IMG/VR virus record: IMGVR_UViG_3300035704_000007
Span: 1 to 64,000 of that record
DNA length: 64,000 bases
Reading direction: 5' to 3' (one strand)
DNA from: a virus
The notes under the pieces: model-generated
The model's database searches: none
What the model was told of the DNA's origin: nothing
What the model saw: only the letters and a program-made list of their open reading frames with translations
Part shown: one piece after another, positions 8,371 to 56,459 of the stretch
Layout of the letters: every line of letters begins with the position of its first letter
How positions within the stretch are numbered: position 1 is the stretch's first letter
Program-made: the position numbers and the translations under genes

Positions 8371-8500
8371 AGCGTACACAGCGTACACTCGTACACTCGT
8401 ACACGCAAAGCCCCCCCTGATTGCTTGAGTGTACGCTGTGTACGCTGTTCACGCTGTGTACGCTGTTCATCCTGTTGCTCCTGTTGACGCTGTGTACGCT
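8371..8500. repeat. Iteron-like array, candidate replication origin
   Basis: The right half is exactly eight tandem 9-mers (8429-8500): GTGTACGCT four times, plus GTTCACGCT, GTTCATCCT, GTTGCTCCT and GTTGACGCT. The left half (8371-8404) carries the inverse: AGCGTACAC twice, then TCGTACAC twice. A 24-base centre separates them. The array lies immediately past the 3' end of the RepA-like ATPase gene. Position and structure fit binding sites for a replication initiator. Confidence 0.6.
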
Positions 8501-8505
8501 TTTTC

Positions 8506-9771
8506 TCATTTCTCTCTCACCTCTCTCTCTTCTTCAGAGGGGAAAGCCAGATCGTAAGAGCCGTTCTTCCGCGTCAGGTCGCCGTCGCGGAACATTTTCA
8601 GCATGAGGCTGCGCGTCGTCCCGGCGTTCTTCTCCAGGATGTCGGCCACGTCTTTGGGCGGCAGGGCACCCTTGCGGGCAATCAGTTCGCGGATCTCGAA
8701 CCGCTCCGGGCTCCGCTGCGTGTCCTCGAACTCGCCCTCTAAAACCCAGATCATCGCCGCTTCGTCCCACTTCAGCGCCAGGTCGCAATCCTGTACGTCG
8801 CGCCCGGTTCCCCGCAGCCGCGCCTCAGAGGAACCCCGCGCCCGCTCAAAGAGCAGGGTCGCATCGGCCGCGCCCGTCAGTCCCACCGAACCGGAAACGC
8901 CGTGCGACCAATCGCCCCAGTCCTCTTTTTTATTGGTGTGGTGGGCGATCAGGAGAGAAATCTCGAAGTCAATGGCGATCCGCAGCAGTGAGCGGCCTAG
9001 CTCATAATCCTCCTGGTAGACGCCGCTGCTCTTTTGGCCCACCTGGCCACTACGGAACGCGGCGAGCGTGTCGATTGCCACGAGGCGCGTCCGCGGATGA
9101 TCTGTCAACCAGGCGCGCAGCTCCACCAGTCCACCCGCCGAGATTGAAGGCCATTCGGGGTAGATGTGCAGATCCTCCGGCGCCGGAGTGCCGCCGAGGA
9201 TTTCGAGAAGCCGCTGCTGCAGCCGCCGGTCGTTGTCTTCCAATGCCAGATACAGCGCCTCACCCTGCTCCACGCGGATCTTGCCGAGCGCCATGCCTCC
9301 CGACGCGACGGCGAGCGTCGTATCATAGAGGAACCGGGATTTGCCCTTCTTCTGGCCCCCAGCCAGGATCGTCAAGCCCTGCGGGACGATCCGGGGAACC
9401 GCCCATTTCTGCTCTGCGATCACCATCCGTTCCAGGTCCTTCGCCGTGTAGCCGCGTATCGCTGGCCGGAAAGCCTCTGACTCATCAGCTTTCCCGTTAC
9501 TCGGCGGCGGTGAGCGGGCCAGCGCTTTCGCTTGTGGTGCGGTGCTGTTAGGCGCCGCTCGTCCATTGCTGCCCAAAGCGATCCGCACCCCCTCACGGAT
9601 CGCTGCCTCACTGCAGTGGGCCGCGCAGATGGGCTCGAACGTGCTGCTCGTCAGGGGTTTCAGTTGCAGCGTCGGTCCGTGGCACGCGGGACAAGTGCCC
9701 CGCCATACCAACCCGTCGAAGTCCAGATCGTGAATAACGCTCTCGAATAGCGCGAGCTTGTCTGCCTTCAC
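8506..9771 (-). CDS. RepA-like hexameric AAA ATPase/helicase
   Basis: 421 aa. The N-terminal zinc-ribbon-like cluster (CPACHG ... ICAAHC, residues 27-53) resembles a primase-type metal site. The RecA-type ATPase core has Walker A GGQKKGKS (138-145), LALEDNDRRLQQRL and Walker B RLVAIDTLAAF (D234). The C-terminal ~100 residues look like a winged helix. Related to RSF1010 RepA-type replicative helicases found in phages and plasmids. It probably loads or unwinds at the adjacent iteron-like array. Confidence 0.82.
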   Translation of the reverse strand: MKADKLALFESVIHDLDFDGLVWRGTCPACHGPTLQLKPLTSSTFEPICAAHCSEAAIREGVRIALGSNGRAAPNSTAPQAKALARSPPPSNGKADESEAFRPAIRGYTAKDLERMVIAEQKWAVPRIVPQGLTILAGGQKKGKSRFLYDTTLAVASGGMALGKIRVEQGEALYLALEDNDRRLQQRLLEILGGTPAPEDLHIYPEWPSISAGGLVELRAWLTDHPRTRLVAIDTLAAFRSGQVGQKSSGVYQEDYELGRSLLRIAIDFEISLLIAHHTNKKEDWGDWSHGVSGSVGLTGAADATLLFERARGSSEARLRGTGRDVQDCDLALKWDEAAMIWVLEGEFEDTQRSPERFEIRELIARKGALPPKDVADILEKNAGTTRSLMLKMFRDGDLTRKNGSYDLAFPSEEEREVREK

Positions 9772-11963: not shown

Positions 11964-12136
11964 CGCTCCTCCTCCCGCACGAGCGCCAGCAGCTCCGACC
12001 GGGTGATCCGCAGGGCTTTGCCCTCCGGCGTCTCCCCCAGGTAGCTTGGATGCCGTGAGAGGAGGACCGCAGCCCGCAAGATGACGCGCTCCTCGCGTTC
12101 GCGGCGGGCCGCTTCTTTCAGGGATTGCTCTCTCAT
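11960..12136 (-). CDS. Small helical protein, unknown function
   Basis: 58 aa, with 4-base overlaps on both sides. Basic/acidic N-terminal helix, then SRHPSYLGETPEGKALRIT and a helical tail. It is coded in the same tight chain as its neighbours. Confidence 0.5.
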   Translation of the reverse strand: MREQSLKEAARREREERVILRAAVLLSRHPSYLGETPEGKALRITRSELLALVREEER

Positions 12137-12714
12137 GGCTTCACCAGATCGACGCTGAACCGGCCGAAGGGTCCGCTCTTGCTCGGTCGAAAGTCGCCGA
12201 CGCCGATAATGGCTCCCGCCAGGTCGAAGACCTGTTGGATCATCTCGGGGTTCAAGAGCATTGGTTCATATTGAAACTCAACCGTCGTCGCCCACTGCGG
12301 CAGCTTCGGACGGGATCGGCTGATCCCCTGGCGCTGCACGACGGCGCGGCGGATATCGATCTCATACTCCCGCAGCGGGTGCCCGGTTTCCGGGTGATAT
12401 AACGGCGCTGACTCCTCAATGGCGAACAGGGCTGCCGAGAGAATTAGCCGGGCAGCCTTCTTCTCGATCTTCTGCCCCGCCGCTGCCGCCAGGATCGCCG
12501 AGCGGAAATGCGTTGTCGGCAGATACAGTTGACCCGAGGGCAGCCGGTAGCAGCCTGCTTCCGCCTCCTCTTCCGGCGATGGAATGACCTTCGGACCGAT
12601 GCCGGTCTCTTTCCGCCGCGCCATTCCGGCGGGGTTGTGCATCAAGAGCCCCGCGCCGTGAACGCCCGTCACCTCGAACCGCACTAACCGCAGATCCCCA
12701 TAATGACTCGCCAT
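12133..12714 (-). CDS. Conserved phage protein of unknown function
   Basis: 193 aa. Distinct blocks: LLMHNPAGMARRK, VIPSPEEEAEAGCYRLPSG, QLYLPTTHFRSAILAAAAG, YEIDIRRAVVQRQGISRSRP and the C-terminal VGDFRPSKSGPFGRF. I recall similar proteins in other phage early regions but know no function. The beta-rich pattern and glycine-rich end are loosely reminiscent of RAMP/Cas7-like folds, which is speculation. It is the gene immediately downstream of the pentamer array on this strand. Confidence 0.65.
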   Translation of the reverse strand: MASHYGDLRLVRFEVTGVHGAGLLMHNPAGMARRKETGIGPKVIPSPEEEAEAGCYRLPSGQLYLPTTHFRSAILAAAAGQKIEKKAARLILSAALFAIEESAPLYHPETGHPLREYEIDIRRAVVQRQGISRSRPKLPQWATTVEFQYEPMLLNPEMIQQVFDLAGAIIGVGDFRPSKSGPFGRFSVDLVKP

Positions 12715-12745
12715 TGTTCACTCCTTGACTGGCTGAGAAGAAAAA

Positions 12746-13316
12746 GACCCTCACCTGACCTCGCCATGCCTCACCGCACCTCGCCATGCCGTAACCGACC
12801 TCGCCTGACCTCGCCTCACCAGACCCGGCCCCACCAGATGAAAGCGTTAGAAAGACCCTCACCCTGCCTCACCTTGCCGCGCCAGGCCCAGCCTCACCGG
12901 GCCTCGCCATGCCCGACCGAACCACACCTGACTAGAGCAAACCGGCGGCGGCCTCACCTCACCCTGCCTGGCCACACCCCGCCGGGCCTAACCGCACCCA
13001 ACCAAAGCAAGAAGCATGGAAAAAGAACCTCACCCTGCCTTGCCTCACCCGACCTGACCCGGCCCGACCAGGCAACGCCCCACCTGACCAGACCTCGCCC
13101 CGCCAGGCCTCACCCCACCGCGAGAAGTCGCTTGAAAGACCCTTACCTCACCGGACCAGACCGTACCCGGACTCACCATGCCACGCCTTGCCTTGCCCCG
13201 CCGTACCACAACAAAGCGGGAAAAAAGACCCTCACCCTACCGCGCCCCACCTGACCGCACCCGGCCATACCTGACCGCGCCTTGCCAGACCTCAGCTGGC
13301 CATCCCAAACCATGCC
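12746..13316. repeat. 99-unit pentanucleotide array in five blocks
   Basis: There is no gene between 12715 and 13320. Nearly every fifth position repeats NNNCC on the plus strand (GGNNN on the minus strand). Blocks by eye: 12746-12835 (18 units), 12854-13003 (30), 13025-13119 (19), 13138-13207 (14) and 13227-13316 (18). Common units are tcacc, tgacc, tcgcc, atgcc and agacc. Every block begins on the plus strand with GACCC or GAACC after an A-run, so on the minus strand each ends GGTRAGG(G/T)TCTTT. The spacers differ. A few units deviate (tgact, agagc, ggcgg, aggca, cggac, tcagc). Confidence 0.9.
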
Positions 13317-13320
13317 TTTA

Positions 13321-14013
13321 TCAAACTGCCGGTTCGAGCCGCTCGTCCAGCACCCGGTTGAGCACCTCGCGCAGCGTCTCCAGGCGGCCGACGAGCGCCT
13401 CGTTCCGCCAGTCCAGCAGATCCCCGCTGATCGCGTTCAGGACCTGATTGACGGAGAAGAGGACGGACATTCCGGAAGCCCGGTCGTTCGCTCGAAACTG
13501 CTCGCCGGTCAGTTCCCGGCCCGCCAGCGATGCCGCCGTGAACTTCAGGGGGACCAGGGCGGCCTCCGGTCCAATCGCCGTGCGCGTAAGGATGAGGCGC
13601 TCGACCGTCTCTACGGTGATTTGCAGCCGCGCCGCGGTTTCGATATCGGGGATGCCCAACTGCCGCGCCAGCGCGATGCAGCGCACCCGGTCATAGGTCG
13701 CCAGCACCTGCCCATGCCGCGAGTTCAGCAGCATCGCGTCGGCAAACAGCGCCGCGTCGGAAGGATAGTCGCGCCACTCCACGGAAATCAGCGCCTCCTC
13801 GCCCGCTTCCCGCAGTTCCGCCGCGATCCGATGGAACCCGTCCACCACCCGGTTCGTGTGCCGCTGTACGACGACAGGCGGCAGATCGATACCGGCTCGT
13901 CGCGCTTCCGCTAGTTGCCGAACGTGCGTATCGTCGATCCCATGGCGCGGATAGATCGATTCATCCAACACCAGATCCACCGCCCTGACCCGCTCGCCGT
14001 GTTCTCGTTTCAT
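13321..14013 (-). CDS. ParB/sulfiredoxin-domain DNA-binding protein
   Basis: 230 aa. The ParB N-terminal fold is visible: HVRQLAEARRAGIDLPPVVV, then VVDGFHRIAAELREAG, followed by a helical middle (LARQLGIPDIETAARLQITV) that resembles a ParB HTH. No ParA partner is seen. It may be a partition/centromere protein, a transcription regulator or a nuclease-like ParB. The pentamer array starts 5 bases after its stop, so the array could be its binding locus. Upstream gene overlap is 53 bases. Confidence 0.7.
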   Translation of the reverse strand: MKREHGERVRAVDLVLDESIYPRHGIDDTHVRQLAEARRAGIDLPPVVVQRHTNRVVDGFHRIAAELREAGEEALISVEWRDYPSDAALFADAMLLNSRHGQVLATYDRVRCIALARQLGIPDIETAARLQITVETVERLILTRTAIGPEAALVPLKFTAASLAGRELTGEQFRANDRASGMSVLFSVNQVLNAISGDLLDWRNEALVGRLETLREVLNRVLDERLEPAV

Positions 14014-33186: not shown

Positions 33187-34293
33187 CTAGCCACGGCCTC
33201 TTAAAAATATACTGTCAAGACCTGGAATTAAATTCTCCGCTCTATAATTTATGCTGTTGGCAAACCTGCTATCACACACCCCCAGAGTGCGGTCACAGCC
33301 GGCCGTCAGGAGCGCCGTGTCGCCCGGCGCGCAGGCAAACGGAAACGCCTCCTGCAGGTCGAGGGTCGCCTGGCCAAAGATCGGGACCGTGTGCGCCTTC
33401 ACCTCACGCGAGATGCCGGCATTGAGGCCGCTCGTGAAGCTGACGGTCCCGTAGGAGTAGAATCCTGGGGGCGTAATGTCGCTGTTGAAGACGAGCCGCT
33501 GCGAGGTCGAGCCGGGCGTCAGACCGGCGCTCAAGAGCGGGCGCGTGAACTGGTAGCCGATGAACCCCGCCCCGCCAAACACCGGGTAGGCGCTCGTGTC
33601 GATCTGCACCGCAAAGGTGGTGCTGGTCGGCGCGGGAGACGCCAGCACGGGCTGCACCTGCCCATTCAGCAGCACCATTCCGGTCACGTCGGTAAAGAAC
33701 GCCCCGTCTCCTGCTATCCGTCCGTGTGCCGTCGCGGTGGTGATGACCGCCGGGTTGGTCTGGGTGATGGCCGAGATGGCTACCGCCGTCAGCTTCACTT
33801 TGCATCTGGTGTCACCGAGTGCAAAGACGCGACAGGTGCCCGATGTCTGCTCGCCGATCTGCTGGGTGAGCCGGCTGGAGAGCGCGCGGATCTCGGCGGT
33901 GTAGCCGCCGTCGCTGTATTGAAGATTGCCAATGTAGCCCGTGCAGAGAAGAATTCTGCTGACCAGCGGGCTTTCAGCCCAATTCACCTGAAACAATTCG
34001 ACGCTCGCCTGGTCATAGAGGCCCGCCAAAAGATCGGCGTCCCGAATGAACGAGCTGCTCAACGTGCCGTCGATACTCAAATTGTCCACGCCCGACCCTT
34101 GTGACACGCGAAGCGCCGTCGCGTCGATGCCGTCCAGGGTGTGATAGACCGTGCCCGCGAAGGTCAGATCCCGGTCAAAGGTCGTCAGGCCCAACACCAC
34201 GCCCGCGTTCGTGGTGATCTTCATGCAAGTGGCTAGGGTGAGCACACTACCGCCGATGTGCGTCAGTAACGGGGAGGGGATTGTCCTGCTCAT
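33187..34293 (-). CDS. DUF2163/BR0599-family tail protein
   Basis: 368 aa. The N-terminus (RTIPSPLLTHIGGSVLTLAT, CMKITTNAGVVLGLTTFDRD) is diagnostic of phage tail proteins with DUF2163, and the C-terminus (CDRTLGVCDSRFANSINYRA) of the BR0599 family. An inserted segment lies at ~175-235. In GTA-like and siphophage tails this protein sits between the distal tail protein and NlpC/P60. Confidence 0.85.
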   Translation of the reverse strand: MSRTIPSPLLTHIGGSVLTLATCMKITTNAGVVLGLTTFDRDLTFAGTVYHTLDGIDATALRVSQGSGVDNLSIDGTLSSSFIRDADLLAGLYDQASVELFQVNWAESPLVSRILLCTGYIGNLQYSDGGYTAEIRALSSRLTQQIGEQTSGTCRVFALGDTRCKVKLTAVAISAITQTNPAVITTATAHGRIAGDGAFFTDVTGMVLLNGQVQPVLASPAPTSTTFAVQIDTSAYPVFGGAGFIGYQFTRPLLSAGLTPGSTSQRLVFNSDITPPGFYSYGTVSFTSGLNAGISREVKAHTVPIFGQATLDLQEAFPFACAPGDTALLTAGCDRTLGVCDSRFANSINYRAENLIPGLDSIFLRGRG

Positions 34294-34308
34294 GCCGTCC
34301 CCCAGGAA

Positions 34309-34334
34309 GGAAAAGCGCGGCTGCTTGGAGAACT
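34309..34334 (+). promoter_or_regulatory. GGAAA-N17-AACT leader element before an HNH gene
   Basis: GGAAA 34309-34313, 17 bases ending CTGCTTGGAG, AACT 34331-34334. The HNH start is 18 bases further on. Shares CTGCTTGG with 42631. Confidence 0.5.
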
Positions 34335-34352
34335 AGTCAGCGGGGGAAGTTG

Positions 34353-35252
34353 ATGAGAACACTGTCTGAGACGCATGTCGCCCGCTTCTGGTCTCGCGTT
34401 GATATTCATTGCCCGAACGGCTGCTGGCTCTGGACTGCCGGGAAAACGGTCGACGGGCATGGACGCTTCTTTGACGGTGTGAGTGAGCGCATGTCCCATC
34501 GCATAGCATGGGAGATGATGCGCGGGGAGATTGAGCCGGGACTTCTTGTTTGTCACGACTGTCCAGGTGGAGACGTGCCTGCCTGTGTAAACCCGTCTCA
34601 CATGTTCTTGGGCACGATATCGGAAAATACCATGGACCGCTGCCGCAAAGGAAGGACAGCACGAGGAGACCGCAACGGCTCTCATCAGGCGGCGGTCAGG
34701 CGCAGGCTGGGGCTGCCACCACAGCCGCCAGGGCGCGGACGCGGATGGAACCGAAAGCTGGCTCCTACGGAGGCTGACGTTCAACGCTTTTGGGAGAAGG
34801 TGGCCGTCGGGGATGTTGATGATTGCTGGCAATGGCAACCTGTGACAGACAGCGACGGCTACGGACGGATGCGCTGGGATGGCCATTACGTTCGAGCGAA
34901 CCGAATCGCGTGGATGATTGCCAGAGGCGCCATTCCTACCGGTCTCTGGGTCTTGCACCGCTGTGATAATCCCCCCTGCTGTAATCCGTCGCACCTCTTT
35001 CTTGGCACGTCTCAAGATAACGTCGCCGACAAAATGTCTAAGCATCGCCAATCGCGAGGTGAACGGCACCGTTCGAGTTTTAGACCGGGTCATAACCAGG
35101 GCGAGCGGAATGGAAGAGCCAAGCTCACGCCTGAAGACGTAGCGAATATTAGGTGTCTGGCCAACCTGCTGAGTGCGCCAGAGGTCGGCAGGATCTACGG
35201 AATTGCCAAGCCGAATGTCTATCGGATCTGGGATGGCAGTGGTTGGAAATAA
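34353..35252 (+). CDS. Double-domain His-Me finger (HNH_3) homing endonuclease
   Basis: 299 aa from ATG 34353 (GGGGGAAG upstream). Two tandem HNH_3/zinc-bound homing domains: LVCHDCPGGDVPACVNPSHM, then FLGTISENTMDRCRKGR (first copy); VLHRCDNPPCCNPSHLFLGT, then SQDNVADKMSKHRQSRG (second copy). A C-terminal helix-turn-helix follows (LTPEDVANIRCLANLLSAPE, VGRIYGIAKPNVYRIW). The tandem form suggests internal duplication. It is antisense to the flanking tail genes. Confidence 0.88.
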   Translation: MRTLSETHVARFWSRVDIHCPNGCWLWTAGKTVDGHGRFFDGVSERMSHRIAWEMMRGEIEPGLLVCHDCPGGDVPACVNPSHMFLGTISENTMDRCRKGRTARGDRNGSHQAAVRRRLGLPPQPPGRGRGWNRKLAPTEADVQRFWEKVAVGDVDDCWQWQPVTDSDGYGRMRWDGHYVRANRIAWMIARGAIPTGLWVLHRCDNPPCCNPSHLFLGTSQDNVADKMSKHRQSRGERHRSSFRPGHNQGERNGRAKLTPEDVANIRCLANLLSAPEVGRIYGIAKPNVYRIWDGSGWK

Positions 35253-49545: not shown

Positions 49546-49575
49546 TAATTACGTGTGTGCGAGAGGAGAAACAAG

Positions 49576-50565
49576 ATGGCATCTAGGGCGCGACGATCGC
49601 TCGAAGAGCGGTTTTGGGAGAAGGTTGAGATTGCCGGCCCGGATGACTGTTGGGAATGGATGGCGTGCCGCGATTTCCGTGGCTATGGCCGGCTCGGCTT
49701 TGGCGGCCACAATGGTGGCGTCGGGTGGGCTTATCGGATCGCCTACCAACTGACCAAAGGACCGATCCCCAAGGGCTATGATGTCCGTCACTTTGTTTGC
49801 CACCATCCCCCGTGCTGCAATCCGAAGCACCTGATCCTGGGAACCAGAGTCGATAACGTCAGTGACATGGTGGCGGCTGGTCGCTGGAAGAACGCGCCGG
49901 TCGCGCCGCCTGATCCGAACCGGGAGCGCTGGGAGCGTCCGCCCGACCCCGAGTACGTCTGTCACACTTGCGGGTTGATCTTCTCCCGGTCCTTCGGCCG
50001 CACTCAAATCGGCAAGCACACCTATTGCTGCCGGGAGCACTACTTCGCCGCTAAGGAGTTTCGGCTGGCAGAGCGTTTCTGGGAGAAGGTCGACAAACGC
50101 GGGCCTGATGAATGCTGGCCGTGGTTGGCGGCGCTTGGGCCGAATGGCTATGGTGTGATTGGGAAGCCCGGCGGCGGCGGTCTCCAGGCTCACCGGGTCG
50201 CCTGGGAGTTGGCTCACGGATCTATTCCCGCCGGGCTGATCGTGCGTCATTACGTCTGCGATAACCGCCCCTGCTGCAACGTCGCGCATATGAAGTTGGG
50301 CACCCGGCGACAGAACAGCGAGGACATGGTTCGAAAGGGACGCCAAGCTACCGGCGACCAAAGCCCGCGCAACCTTCACCCGGAAAGCTATGCCGTGGGC
50401 GAGGCGCATGCCAACTCCAAGCTGGTGCCGGAACAGGTGCGAGCGATTCGGCAGGAGTATGCCCGAGGAGGCATCTCCTTCAGATCGCTCGCCCTGCGGT
50501 ATGGCGTCTGCGCTGGCGTGATTGATCGGATCGTGCATCGCGAAACCTGGAAGCATATCGAGTAG
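49576..50565 (+). CDS. Double-domain HNH_3 homing endonuclease with zinc finger
   Basis: 329 aa from ATG 49576 (GAGAGGAGAAACAAG upstream). Two His-Me finger domains: VRHFVCHHPPCCNPKHLILG, then TRVDNVSDMVAAGR; and VRHYVCDNRPCCNVAHMKLG, then TRRQNSEDMVRKGR. Between them is a CHTCGLIFSR zinc finger, and at the end an HTH (RSLALRYGVCAGVIDRIVHR). Antisense cassette beside the major capsid gene. Confidence 0.88.
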   Translation: MASRARRSLEERFWEKVEIAGPDDCWEWMACRDFRGYGRLGFGGHNGGVGWAYRIAYQLTKGPIPKGYDVRHFVCHHPPCCNPKHLILGTRVDNVSDMVAAGRWKNAPVAPPDPNRERWERPPDPEYVCHTCGLIFSRSFGRTQIGKHTYCCREHYFAAKEFRLAERFWEKVDKRGPDECWPWLAALGPNGYGVIGKPGGGGLQAHRVAWELAHGSIPAGLIVRHYVCDNRPCCNVAHMKLGTRRQNSEDMVRKGRQATGDQSPRNLHPESYAVGEAHANSKLVPEQVRAIRQEYARGGISFRSLALRYGVCAGVIDRIVHRETWKHIE

Positions 50566-54756: not shown

Positions 54757-54986
54757 GGAGCGGGCTCTTCCCTGCGCCGTCCCGTTCCCGCGCAATCCGG
54801 GCAGAGGATCGGCTTGACGATGCCCAGGCGCACGGCGACAGCGGAGGCTTCCGGCAGCGCTTCCCAGACACGCCACGGCTCACCGGCCTCGCTATTGGCG
54901 ATCCGGCCGCAGCCGTCGCAGCGCGGGCAGGGTTCGCGAATGACGGCATCGCCGAAACCCGTTTCGGCGTTGATGCTGTGTTTCAT
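54753..54986 (-). CDS. DnaJ-type zinc-finger protein
   Basis: 77 aa from ATG 54986 (ATGA overlap). CPRCDGCGRI and CPDCAGTGRR are two halves of a DnaJ-like CxxCxGxG zinc site. Small accessory protein in the packaging-to-capsid interval. Confidence 0.6.
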   Translation of the reverse strand: MKHSINAETGFGDAVIREPCPRCDGCGRIANSEAGEPWRVWEALPEASAVAVRLGIVKPILCPDCAGTGRRREEPAP

Positions 54987-55204
54987 CCCTCGAGTACCTC
55001 CTCGACTTTGGCCTCCGGCAGTGACAGCAGCCGGCTGCAGACCGGGCAGCGCTTCAGGAGCGCGGCCGGCGGAGCAGGCGGGCCGCTCTGCACGCCCACC
55101 AGCGAGGCGCGGCCGTGGATGTCGCTGACGATCCAGCCGTTGCCGGTCCAGGACCAACGGCAGCCACACCCGCAAGCGCCCGAGGGCAAGAGATGTTCAG
55201 GCAT
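54983..55204 (-). CDS. Small Cys-rich protein, unknown function
   Basis: 73 aa. CGCGCRWSWTG near the start and RCPVCSRLL near the end form a possible zinc site. Its Shine-Dalgarno lies inside the remnant gene end upstream (GAGGAGAAATAG). Confidence 0.55.
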   Translation of the reverse strand: MPEHLLPSGACGCGCRWSWTGNGWIVSDIHGRASLVGVQSGPPAPPAALLKRCPVCSRLLSLPEAKVEEVLEG

Positions 55205-55206
55205 TG

Positions 55207-55263
55207 CTATTTCTCCTCACCCATCAGCGGCGATCCATCGCGCGGAACCCACGCCAATTCATT
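55207..55263 (-). pseudogene. Separated 3' end of the gene interrupted by the TnpB element
   Basis: On the minus strand the frame ELAWVPRDGSPLMGEEK ends at TAG 55207-55209, where a downstream gene's ribosome site overlaps it, a normal gene-end arrangement. No start exists. It probably was the C-terminus of the protein now starting at 56737, cut off by the insertion. Confidence 0.5.
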
Positions 55264-55283
55264 GGCAGTGGAGGAGCGCGATA

Positions 55284-55313
55284 CCTGCTTGTCTGAAGGA
55301 TTGGTGCTATAAT
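55284..55313 (+). promoter_or_regulatory. Extended -10 promoter of tnpB
   Basis: TGCTATAAT with TATAAT at 55308-55313, ten bases before the ATG at 55323; a poor -35 is compensated by the TGN extension. The message would be near-leaderless. Confidence 0.6.
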
Positions 55314-55322
55314 AATGGTGGT

Positions 55323-56459
55323 ATGACGAAAACACTGGTGGTCTCCTTGCGGCCTACTGAGCAGCAGTTACCGGATTTATTCCTGGCAATGGAAGCGTTC
55401 AACGCTGCCTGTAATTGCGTCTCAGCGATTGCCTGGGAGACGCAGGAGTTCAATAACTATCGGCTCCGTCGGCTCGCCTATCGAACGATCCGCGAGCAGT
55501 TTGGACTGCCGGCACAACTGGCGCAGCAGGCCATCGCTAAAGTCGCCAATGCCTACAAGGTCGCGAAGCATCGGCGCGCCGAGTTCGAGCCGCATGGCGC
55601 TGTCACCTATGACTGCCGCGTGTTCCGGCTGTTGGGTGTTTCTGCCGTCTCCATGACGCTGCTCTCCGGTCGCGCTAAAATCGCTCTCTCGCTGGGCGGC
55701 TATCAGGCAGAGCGTCTGCGAGGGGCGAAGGTGGGTGAGGTCGATCTGTGCTATCTTCCCGAGAAGCATCGTTTCCGGCTGCACCTCTCGCTCAAAACCG
55801 AGACGCCGCCGGTCGCCGAGACGGAAGAGTTTCTCGGCATCGACATGGGCATCAAGAACATCGCCGCCGACAGCGACGGCACCCTCTACGCGGGCGGCAA
55901 GCTGCGCCGGCTGCGAAAGGTGGCCCGGCGGGTGCGCCGCCGTCTGCAAAAGCTCGGCACTCGCGGCGCTCGTCGCCTGCTTGTTAAACGACGCCGCAAG
56001 GAACAGCGGCGGGTTGCCCATATCAATCACTGCATCTCCAAACAGATCGTTCAGGCTGCCAAAGGCACCGGGCGTGGGGTCGCGGTCGAAGACCTGACCC
56101 ACATCCACGACCGGATAACGGTTCGCCGGGCAGACCGGGCTGAGCATTCGGGCTGGGCTTTCCACCAACTGCGCTCCTTTATCGAATACAAGTGTGTCAA
56201 CGCCGGCATTGCCTGCATCGCCGTCGATCCCCGGAACACCTCCCGCACCTGCCCCCGCTGTGGGTGCGTCGATAAGCGGAACCGCCCATCCCAGTCCGAA
56301 TTCCGCTGTGTCAAATGTGGAGAGACCGGTCATGCGGATCTCTTCGCCGCGCGAGAAATTGCGCTCAGGGGCCGCTCGCTAAGCCGGCCAAACTGCTCGG
56401 AGGGGAATGCCGCTGAAACCGGCTCCGCTGTCCTTCAGGGCAAAGCCACACCCCTTTAG
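55323..56459 (+). CDS. tnpB: TnpB RNA-guided nuclease
   Basis: 378 aa. The RuvC triad appears intact: GIDMGIKN (D174), VEDLTHI (E256) and GHADLFAA (D339). The zinc ribbon CPRCG...CVKCG (C310, C313, C329, C332) is intact too. N-terminal recognition domain at ~1-165. TnpB cuts DNA next to a short motif, guided by an omega RNA transcribed from its own 3' end. The stop codon lies within the terminal hairpin, as in active elements. Probably functional. Confidence 0.92.
   Translation: MTKTLVVSLRPTEQQLPDLFLAMEAFNAACNCVSAIAWETQEFNNYRLRRLAYRTIREQFGLPAQLAQQAIAKVANAYKVAKHRRAEFEPHGAVTYDCRVFRLLGVSAVSMTLLSGRAKIALSLGGYQAERLRGAKVGEVDLCYLPEKHRFRLHLSLKTETPPVAETEEFLGIDMGIKNIAADSDGTLYAGGKLRRLRKVARRVRRRLQKLGTRGARRLLVKRRRKEQRRVAHINHCISKQIVQAAKGTGRGVAVEDLTHIHDRITVRRADRAEHSGWAFHQLRSFIEYKCVNAGIACIAVDPRNTSRTCPRCGCVDKRNRPSQSEFRCVKCGETGHADLFAAREIALRGRSLSRPNCSEGNAAETGSAVLQGKATPL

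Follow-up and report, generated by a model that had tools for sequence, protein, structure and literature searches.

A GGYNN pentanucleotide array in a phage genome is very probably the guide-RNA array of a VIPR system, with a ParB-like gene as candidate accessory

Herein, we analysed a 64,000-nucleotide stretch of viral DNA (the window; positions 1 to 64,000 of IMG/VR record IMGVR_UViG_3300035704_000007) whose minus strand carries, at 12751-13316, about 93 GGYNN units (Y = C/T) in five or six blocks. This array is very probably the vrRNA array of a phage-encoded VIPR (Viral Interference Programmable Repeat) system, with about five guide-RNA genes. VIPR was described in a 2026 preprint as a CRISPR-like system used by phages against rival phages and prophages (PMC13142463). 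As reported there, Vipr is a RAMP, called ancestral; the vrRNAs, made of 9-16 YNNGG repeats and an invariable tail, lie beside vipr and co-purify with Vipr; and GGY is held by the protein, with the NN pairs reading double-stranded DNA and one base skipped between pairs (PMC13142463). For the VIPR systems of SUSP1 and P. fulva, the preprint reports that the vrRNAs are expressed and bound by Vipr, that targets are read by the 1-nt skip rule, and that they are repressed (PMC13142463). We assign the window to VIPR because its array, tail, Vipr and location fit this description: the locus holds Vipr, the ancestral RAMP; the YNNGG repeats are tandem with hypervariable NN, in tracts of 11-18 units whose upper end is slightly above the published 9-16; an invariable 3' tail follows the tract in five of six cases; and the locus is minimal and phage-borne, in a virus record that encodes a serine integrase, capsid and tail genes. 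The identity of the array as VIPR rests on the array itself, the homology and fold of Vipr, their linkage, their shared strand and the tails. For vrRNA expression, target choice and function in the window's phage, we infer by analogy with the published systems.

The register starts with the unit GGCAT at 13316 on the minus strand, 4 nt past the stop codon of the ParB-like gene, and the final unit finishes at 12751 (Table 1). The initial annotation had seen GG at every fifth base of this strand, which holds, and had counted 99 units in five blocks; our recount gives about 93, a total that takes in a handful of degenerate units (GGGAT, GCTGA, GTCCG, TGCCT, GCTCT, AGTCA, GTTAC), and the block number stands in part. 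Its 30-unit block corresponds to tracts 4a and 4b, the former continuing into the latter via a GC-rich stretch that has no tail; tract 4a is perhaps a fused or decayed guide. The motif GGTRAGG(G/T)TCTTT had been assigned to the end of every block and closes five of the six tracts, tract 4a being the exception; the tail GGTRAGGKTCTTT is likewise present behind five of six, and the phase is reset after each of these five, as claimed. Most units are perfect. The variable bases had been called non-random, but the near-constant pyrimidine at the third base (109 of 112 parsed units) had been missed. There is no second array in the whole 66,945-base virus record.

Table 1. Features of the putative VIPR locus, listed 5' to 3' on the minus strand.
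Feature	Position	Strand	Description
ParB-like gene	13321..14013	-	230 aa, phrog_1033, candidate VIPR accessory (vap)
vrRNA 1 repeat tract	13232..13316	-	17 units, two degenerate (GGGAT, GCTGA)
vrRNA 1 tail	13208..13231	-	GGGTCTTTTTTCCCGC...; weak hairpin with last units of tract
vrRNA 2 repeat tract	13143..13207	-	13 units, one degenerate (GTCCG)
vrRNA 2 tail	13120..13142	-	GGGTCTTTCAAGC...
vrRNA 3 repeat tract	13030..13119	-	18 units, one degenerate (TGCCT)
vrRNA 3 tail	13004..13029	-	GGTTCTTTTTCC...
vrRNA 4a repeat tract	12949..13003	-	11 units, without tail
vrRNA 4b repeat tract	12859..12943	-	17 units, two degenerate close to start
vrRNA 4b tail	12836..12858	-	GGGTCTTTCTAACGC...
vrRNA 5 repeat tract	12751..12835	-	17 units, one degenerate (GTTAC)
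vrRNA 5 tail	12715..12750	-	GGGTCTTTTTCTTC..., merges into vipr leader
vipr gene	12133..12714	-	193 aa, phrog_4652, RAMP/Cas7-like predicted guide-binding protein

Up to 18 of 20 successive pentamers in the array start with GG in phase, and perfect GGY units follow one another in runs of up to 14. The remainder of the window's minus strand reached at most 9 of 20 and a run of 4 units, second-order Markov simulations of the whole window (n = 100) at most 11 of 20 and 4 units, and simulations with the array's own composition (n = 1000) at most 14 of 20 and 9 units. Within the array, no sigma-70-like promoter or terminator was found on the minus strand, and the Rfam matches at E<=1 included neither a hammerhead nor any other credible RNA. 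The folding of the putative vrRNAs was no better than that of shuffles in four of five cases.

IMG/VR was scanned for ten perfect GGYNN units, a pattern blind to the protein, and at least 120 stretches matched. Among the 120 matches listed, nearly all were heterogeneous arrays, built from several to more than 20 different units and often divided into tracts about 8-16 units long; short conserved spacers separate the tracts in some loci (GGCAC-cgca in L061, GGCGT-tcag in L035, GGCTA-atg in L107). Plain microsatellites among the matches listed were L121, L128, L129 and L114 (four units). The similar GG-rich pentamers in other phages that the initial annotation had mentioned are borne out by arrays across dozens of phage contigs, and the search for such arrays and their neighbours that it had proposed finds them widespread and tied to one protein family. 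When the neighbouring proteins were compared all-against-all, one family dominated, and it contains the window's 12133-12714 product (phrog_4652). A six-frame HMM search found a Vipr homologue encoded in 87 of the 120 listed array contigs versus 0 of 106 control stretches, which had been retrieved with unrelated patterns; many of the array contigs that lacked one are cut at contig ends or are the plain microsatellites named above. Across the 56 loci that were measured, one of them the window, the arrays always shared their strand with the Vipr gene (56/56). The distance between the two was often 0-40 nt, and arrays could precede or follow the gene, often in several blocks. The same layout is present in the named isolates E. 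coli Alf5, P. aeruginosa LESphi2, Mycobacterium Quico and DSL-LC04. A single-protein search of IMG/VR found no close relatives of the window's Vipr. In Pseudomonas Medea1 (L146), Mycobacterium LittleE (L148) and Gordonia ODay (L149), the Vipr genes are moron-like inserts within or beside tail genes; HTH regulators adjoin them in Medea1 and ODay, and Medea1 also has a Rha-type antirepressor.

The conserved phage gene that had been noted next to the array belongs to this Vipr family. The family profile (46 sequences) matched the PDB entry 36pp_D, 'SUSP1 Vipr protein', at E=3.4e-34, the second-best match being at E=0.34. An AlphaFold model built from the window and locus sequences had a mean pLDDT of 91.3, and the Foldseek matches listed for it were overwhelmingly Csm3/Cas7-type RAMP subunits with probability 1.0. 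The vipr frame is intact, and the invariant family residues are all present (W141, G167, G171, R176, G184). Judged by its homology and predicted fold, the 12133-12714 product is Vipr, and the earlier guess of an RNA bound by a GG-recognising protein proves essentially right, with the predicted Vipr as that protein.

In the proposed mechanism, the minus strand would be read in the order ParB-like gene, array and vipr, and the array would yield about five vrRNAs of about 90-115 nt, each with 11-18 GGYNN units and a short 3' tail. Vipr copies would line up along the tract, with GGY as the constant protein-held motif and NN free for DNA pairing; read in succession, the NN pairs would define a target in double-stranded DNA, passing over one base from each pair to the next. 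Once bound, the complex would stop the target from being transcribed, the target most likely belonging to a competing phage or prophage, and the ParB-like protein would be an accessory DNA-binding protein of this system. To represent the guides, one exact 8-unit, 1-skip pattern was taken from each of tracts 1, 2, 3, 4b and 5, giving five IMG/VR scans. No DNA target was found in IMG/VR, as the matches did not extend beyond chance into the remaining units; no self-target was found in the phage, and no guide was clearly shared with another compared array. The skip-1 E-values for guides 2, 3 and 5 are circular, since many of the compared loci had been fetched with the same patterns. A match of vrRNA 2 to a conserved phage motif, GNKVIERT, in many contigs was rejected, as it fell mostly in one gene family and had no extension beyond chance. 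Skips of 0-3 compared on about 1.2 Mb of sequence were not told apart, the sample being too small. The NN frequencies of 378 tracts from all loci correlated with codon positions 1-2 (r=0.60, bootstrap 0.47-0.69), versus r about 0 for positions 2-3 or 3-1; log-odds of NN versus codon positions gave no discrimination over the same 378 tracts. The likeness to codon positions 1-2 is suggestive and fits the published wobble-skipping; composition alone could explain it.

The predicted fold of the ParB-like protein matches ParB, Noc and KorB, and its homologues carry an invariant DGFHR, which we take to sit at ParB's GERR box. The profile of the window's gene found homologues in six array loci (the window, L122, L088, L078, L104 and L141) and in no control; L141 had been fetched by the ParB-like protein and the other four by the array pattern. 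Among 131 loci, 6 carried a ParB-like gene versus 97 with Vipr. When 84,980 bacterial and archaeal genomes were searched by the ParB-like family alone, 39 loci were obtained. All four near-full-length matches (>180 bits) were at VIPR loci: with Vipr and arrays in a Thermotogales MAG (L257), with Vipr and a variant array in a Planctomycetota MAG (L258), and with arrays in two Deltaproteobacteria (L259, L260), on whose short contigs Vipr was not detected. The weaker matches, mostly ParB_N-only, had Vipr or an array in 0/35 cases. The ParB-like gene thus stands beside VIPR in at least ten loci, in viruses and bacteria. In the seven loci with a GGYNN array downstream of this gene, the array starts 9-44 nt past the stop codon in 7/7, with its first perfect run taken as the start (for the window, 4 nt when degenerate units count as well). 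In the Vipr tree, the window clusters with L141 and L122 (support 99/91), and the ParB-bearing loci fall in four separate places, L104 being on a long branch; such scatter is as expected of an exchangeable accessory. No relatives of the ParB-like protein were found in the phage collection, and only distant relatives of the integrase in the plasmid collection.

On these sequence associations, the ParB-like gene is a strong candidate for a dedicated VIPR accessory (vap). The vap genes of VIPR types II, VI and VII encode predicted DNA-binding proteins; ParB is absent from the main text of the preprint (PMC13142463), relative to which the ParB-like neighbour is a new point. A tentative and rather doubtful idea is that the Vipr-vrRNA complex loads the ParB-like protein at guide-chosen DNA, where it would spread or clamp like ParB or KorB and bring about long-range silencing of a rival phage. 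If so, this would be an RNA-programmed ParB-type clamp that turns a local block into a long-range one.

Several ParB-bearing loci have features of their own. At 3650-3945 of L258 (JAJVHW010000047.1), an array with CGCNN grammar instead of GGYNN lies between Vipr and the ParB-like gene and reaches 12 units in phase, versus a maximum of 7 in 500 simulations. The ParB-like gene of L141 (5992-6680) is split over two overlapping frames, by frameshift or sequencing error, on a contig that otherwise retains arrays and Vipr. In L259 (2639-4556) and L260 (1379-3296), no Vipr was detectable between the arrays and the ParB-like gene, where only terminase-like and HTH-like genes were recognised by eye; Vipr may lie outside the contig, have diverged strongly or be provided in trans.

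The initial annotation had also considered a centromere and a recombination site. Nothing points to recombination. A parS-like centromere or spreading platform for the ParB-like protein would account for a ParB-fold gene directly upstream and for the start of the arrays 9-44 nt behind such genes, and the link between gene and array is real, as that of a recurrent accessory gene; a ParB-binding role for the array is nevertheless very unlikely. The array is strand-asymmetric with variable NN, arrays share the strand of Vipr in every locus measured, Vipr without a ParB-like gene nearby is the usual state of array loci, and no ParA-type match was found among the neighbouring proteins scanned. CRISPR-Cas had already been dismissed, correctly: the units are of 5 bases, and there are no conserved repeats of 20 or more bases separated by unique spacers. 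RNA bound by TRAP resembles the array in its 5-nt period, with about 11-18 units per block, and the array precedes vipr in the window, so that a ring protein on period-5 RNA could be imagined to regulate vipr as an attenuator or to titrate a host regulator as a sponge. We consider this highly improbable, given that Vipr is a RAMP and not a TRAP by Foldseek, that arrays elsewhere lie upstream or downstream of vipr and often in several blocks, that a sponge leaves the hypervariable NN unexplained, and that a DNA target rule has been published (PMC13142463).

Microsatellite slippage, a G-quadruplex tract or an assembly artefact would fit a G-rich sequence with a five-base period. With 45 distinct pentamers among the 112 parsed units, and composition-matched simulations falling well short, the array is no simple microsatellite, as the initial annotation had held. 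Artefact or slippage, which it had allowed for, is unlikely in the extreme because the same grammar, with other NN series and tied to one gene family, recurs in dozens of other phage contigs. It is also improbable, though less so, that this is an inactive VIPR array whose former guiding ability has been lost. About seven degenerate units, the fusion of the tail-less tract 4a to 4b and the lack of a detectable target speak for such decay, and part of the array may indeed be decaying; five intact tails, a vipr frame with every invariant residue and the predominance of perfect units speak against it. We thus retain the reading of a vrRNA array of a phage VIPR system.

Elsewhere in the window, the phage carries, alongside the VIPR system, a TnpB/IS605 OrfB gene with a Cas12f1-like TNB domain (Pfam PF07282, PF01385) at 54978-56459 (+), either an RNA-guided nuclease or the relic of a transposon. 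Nine-base tandem repeats (GTGTACGCT) at 8429-8500, immediately beyond the point where an AAA_25 (RepA-like) gene (8506-9771) ends, could be iterons; weak miRNA-family matches below the gathering score fall on this repeat. An HNH (HNH_3) endonuclease gene at 34281-35252 (+) runs against the late genes around it, and another ORF, at 49555-50565 (+), has a similar make-up; both are possible homing endonucleases.

This analysis independently re-found, from raw sequence, the guide-RNA system of the 2026 preprint (PMC13142463), and the protein-blind scan ties GGYNN arrays, widespread in viral contigs, to one RAMP family. A further addition is the candidate accessory gene with a ParB fold, whose product, should it work at DNA sites chosen by the guides, would give VIPR an effector that spreads or clamps. 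The window's protein shares its predicted fold with ParB, Noc and KorB and differs in going with VIPR arrays, not with parS/ParA, and in its length of only about 230 aa. As in the VIPR of Escherichia phage SUSP1, a phage Vipr homologue adjoins multi-guide GGY/NN arrays with a common 3' tail on the gene's strand; the window differs in its short tail (GGTRAGGKTCTTT...), in blocks that nearly abut, in tracts of up to 18 units versus the 9-16 quoted, and in a ParB-like gene instead of vap1 (phrog_5926), whose profile had no match in the window. TIGR-Tas is also a phage-borne tandem guide array with an RNA-binding partner, but its protein and array grammar are unrelated. With the class 1 CRISPR RAMPs Cas7 and Csm3, Vipr shares a predicted RRM/RAMP fold, and the published analogy lies in oligomers on a guide RNA whose pairing is disrupted by thumbs (PMC13142463). 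Unlike class 1 CRISPR, the array has no CRISPR repeats or spacers, and no cas genes were seen beside it; of each five RNA bases in a VIPR guide, two are read.
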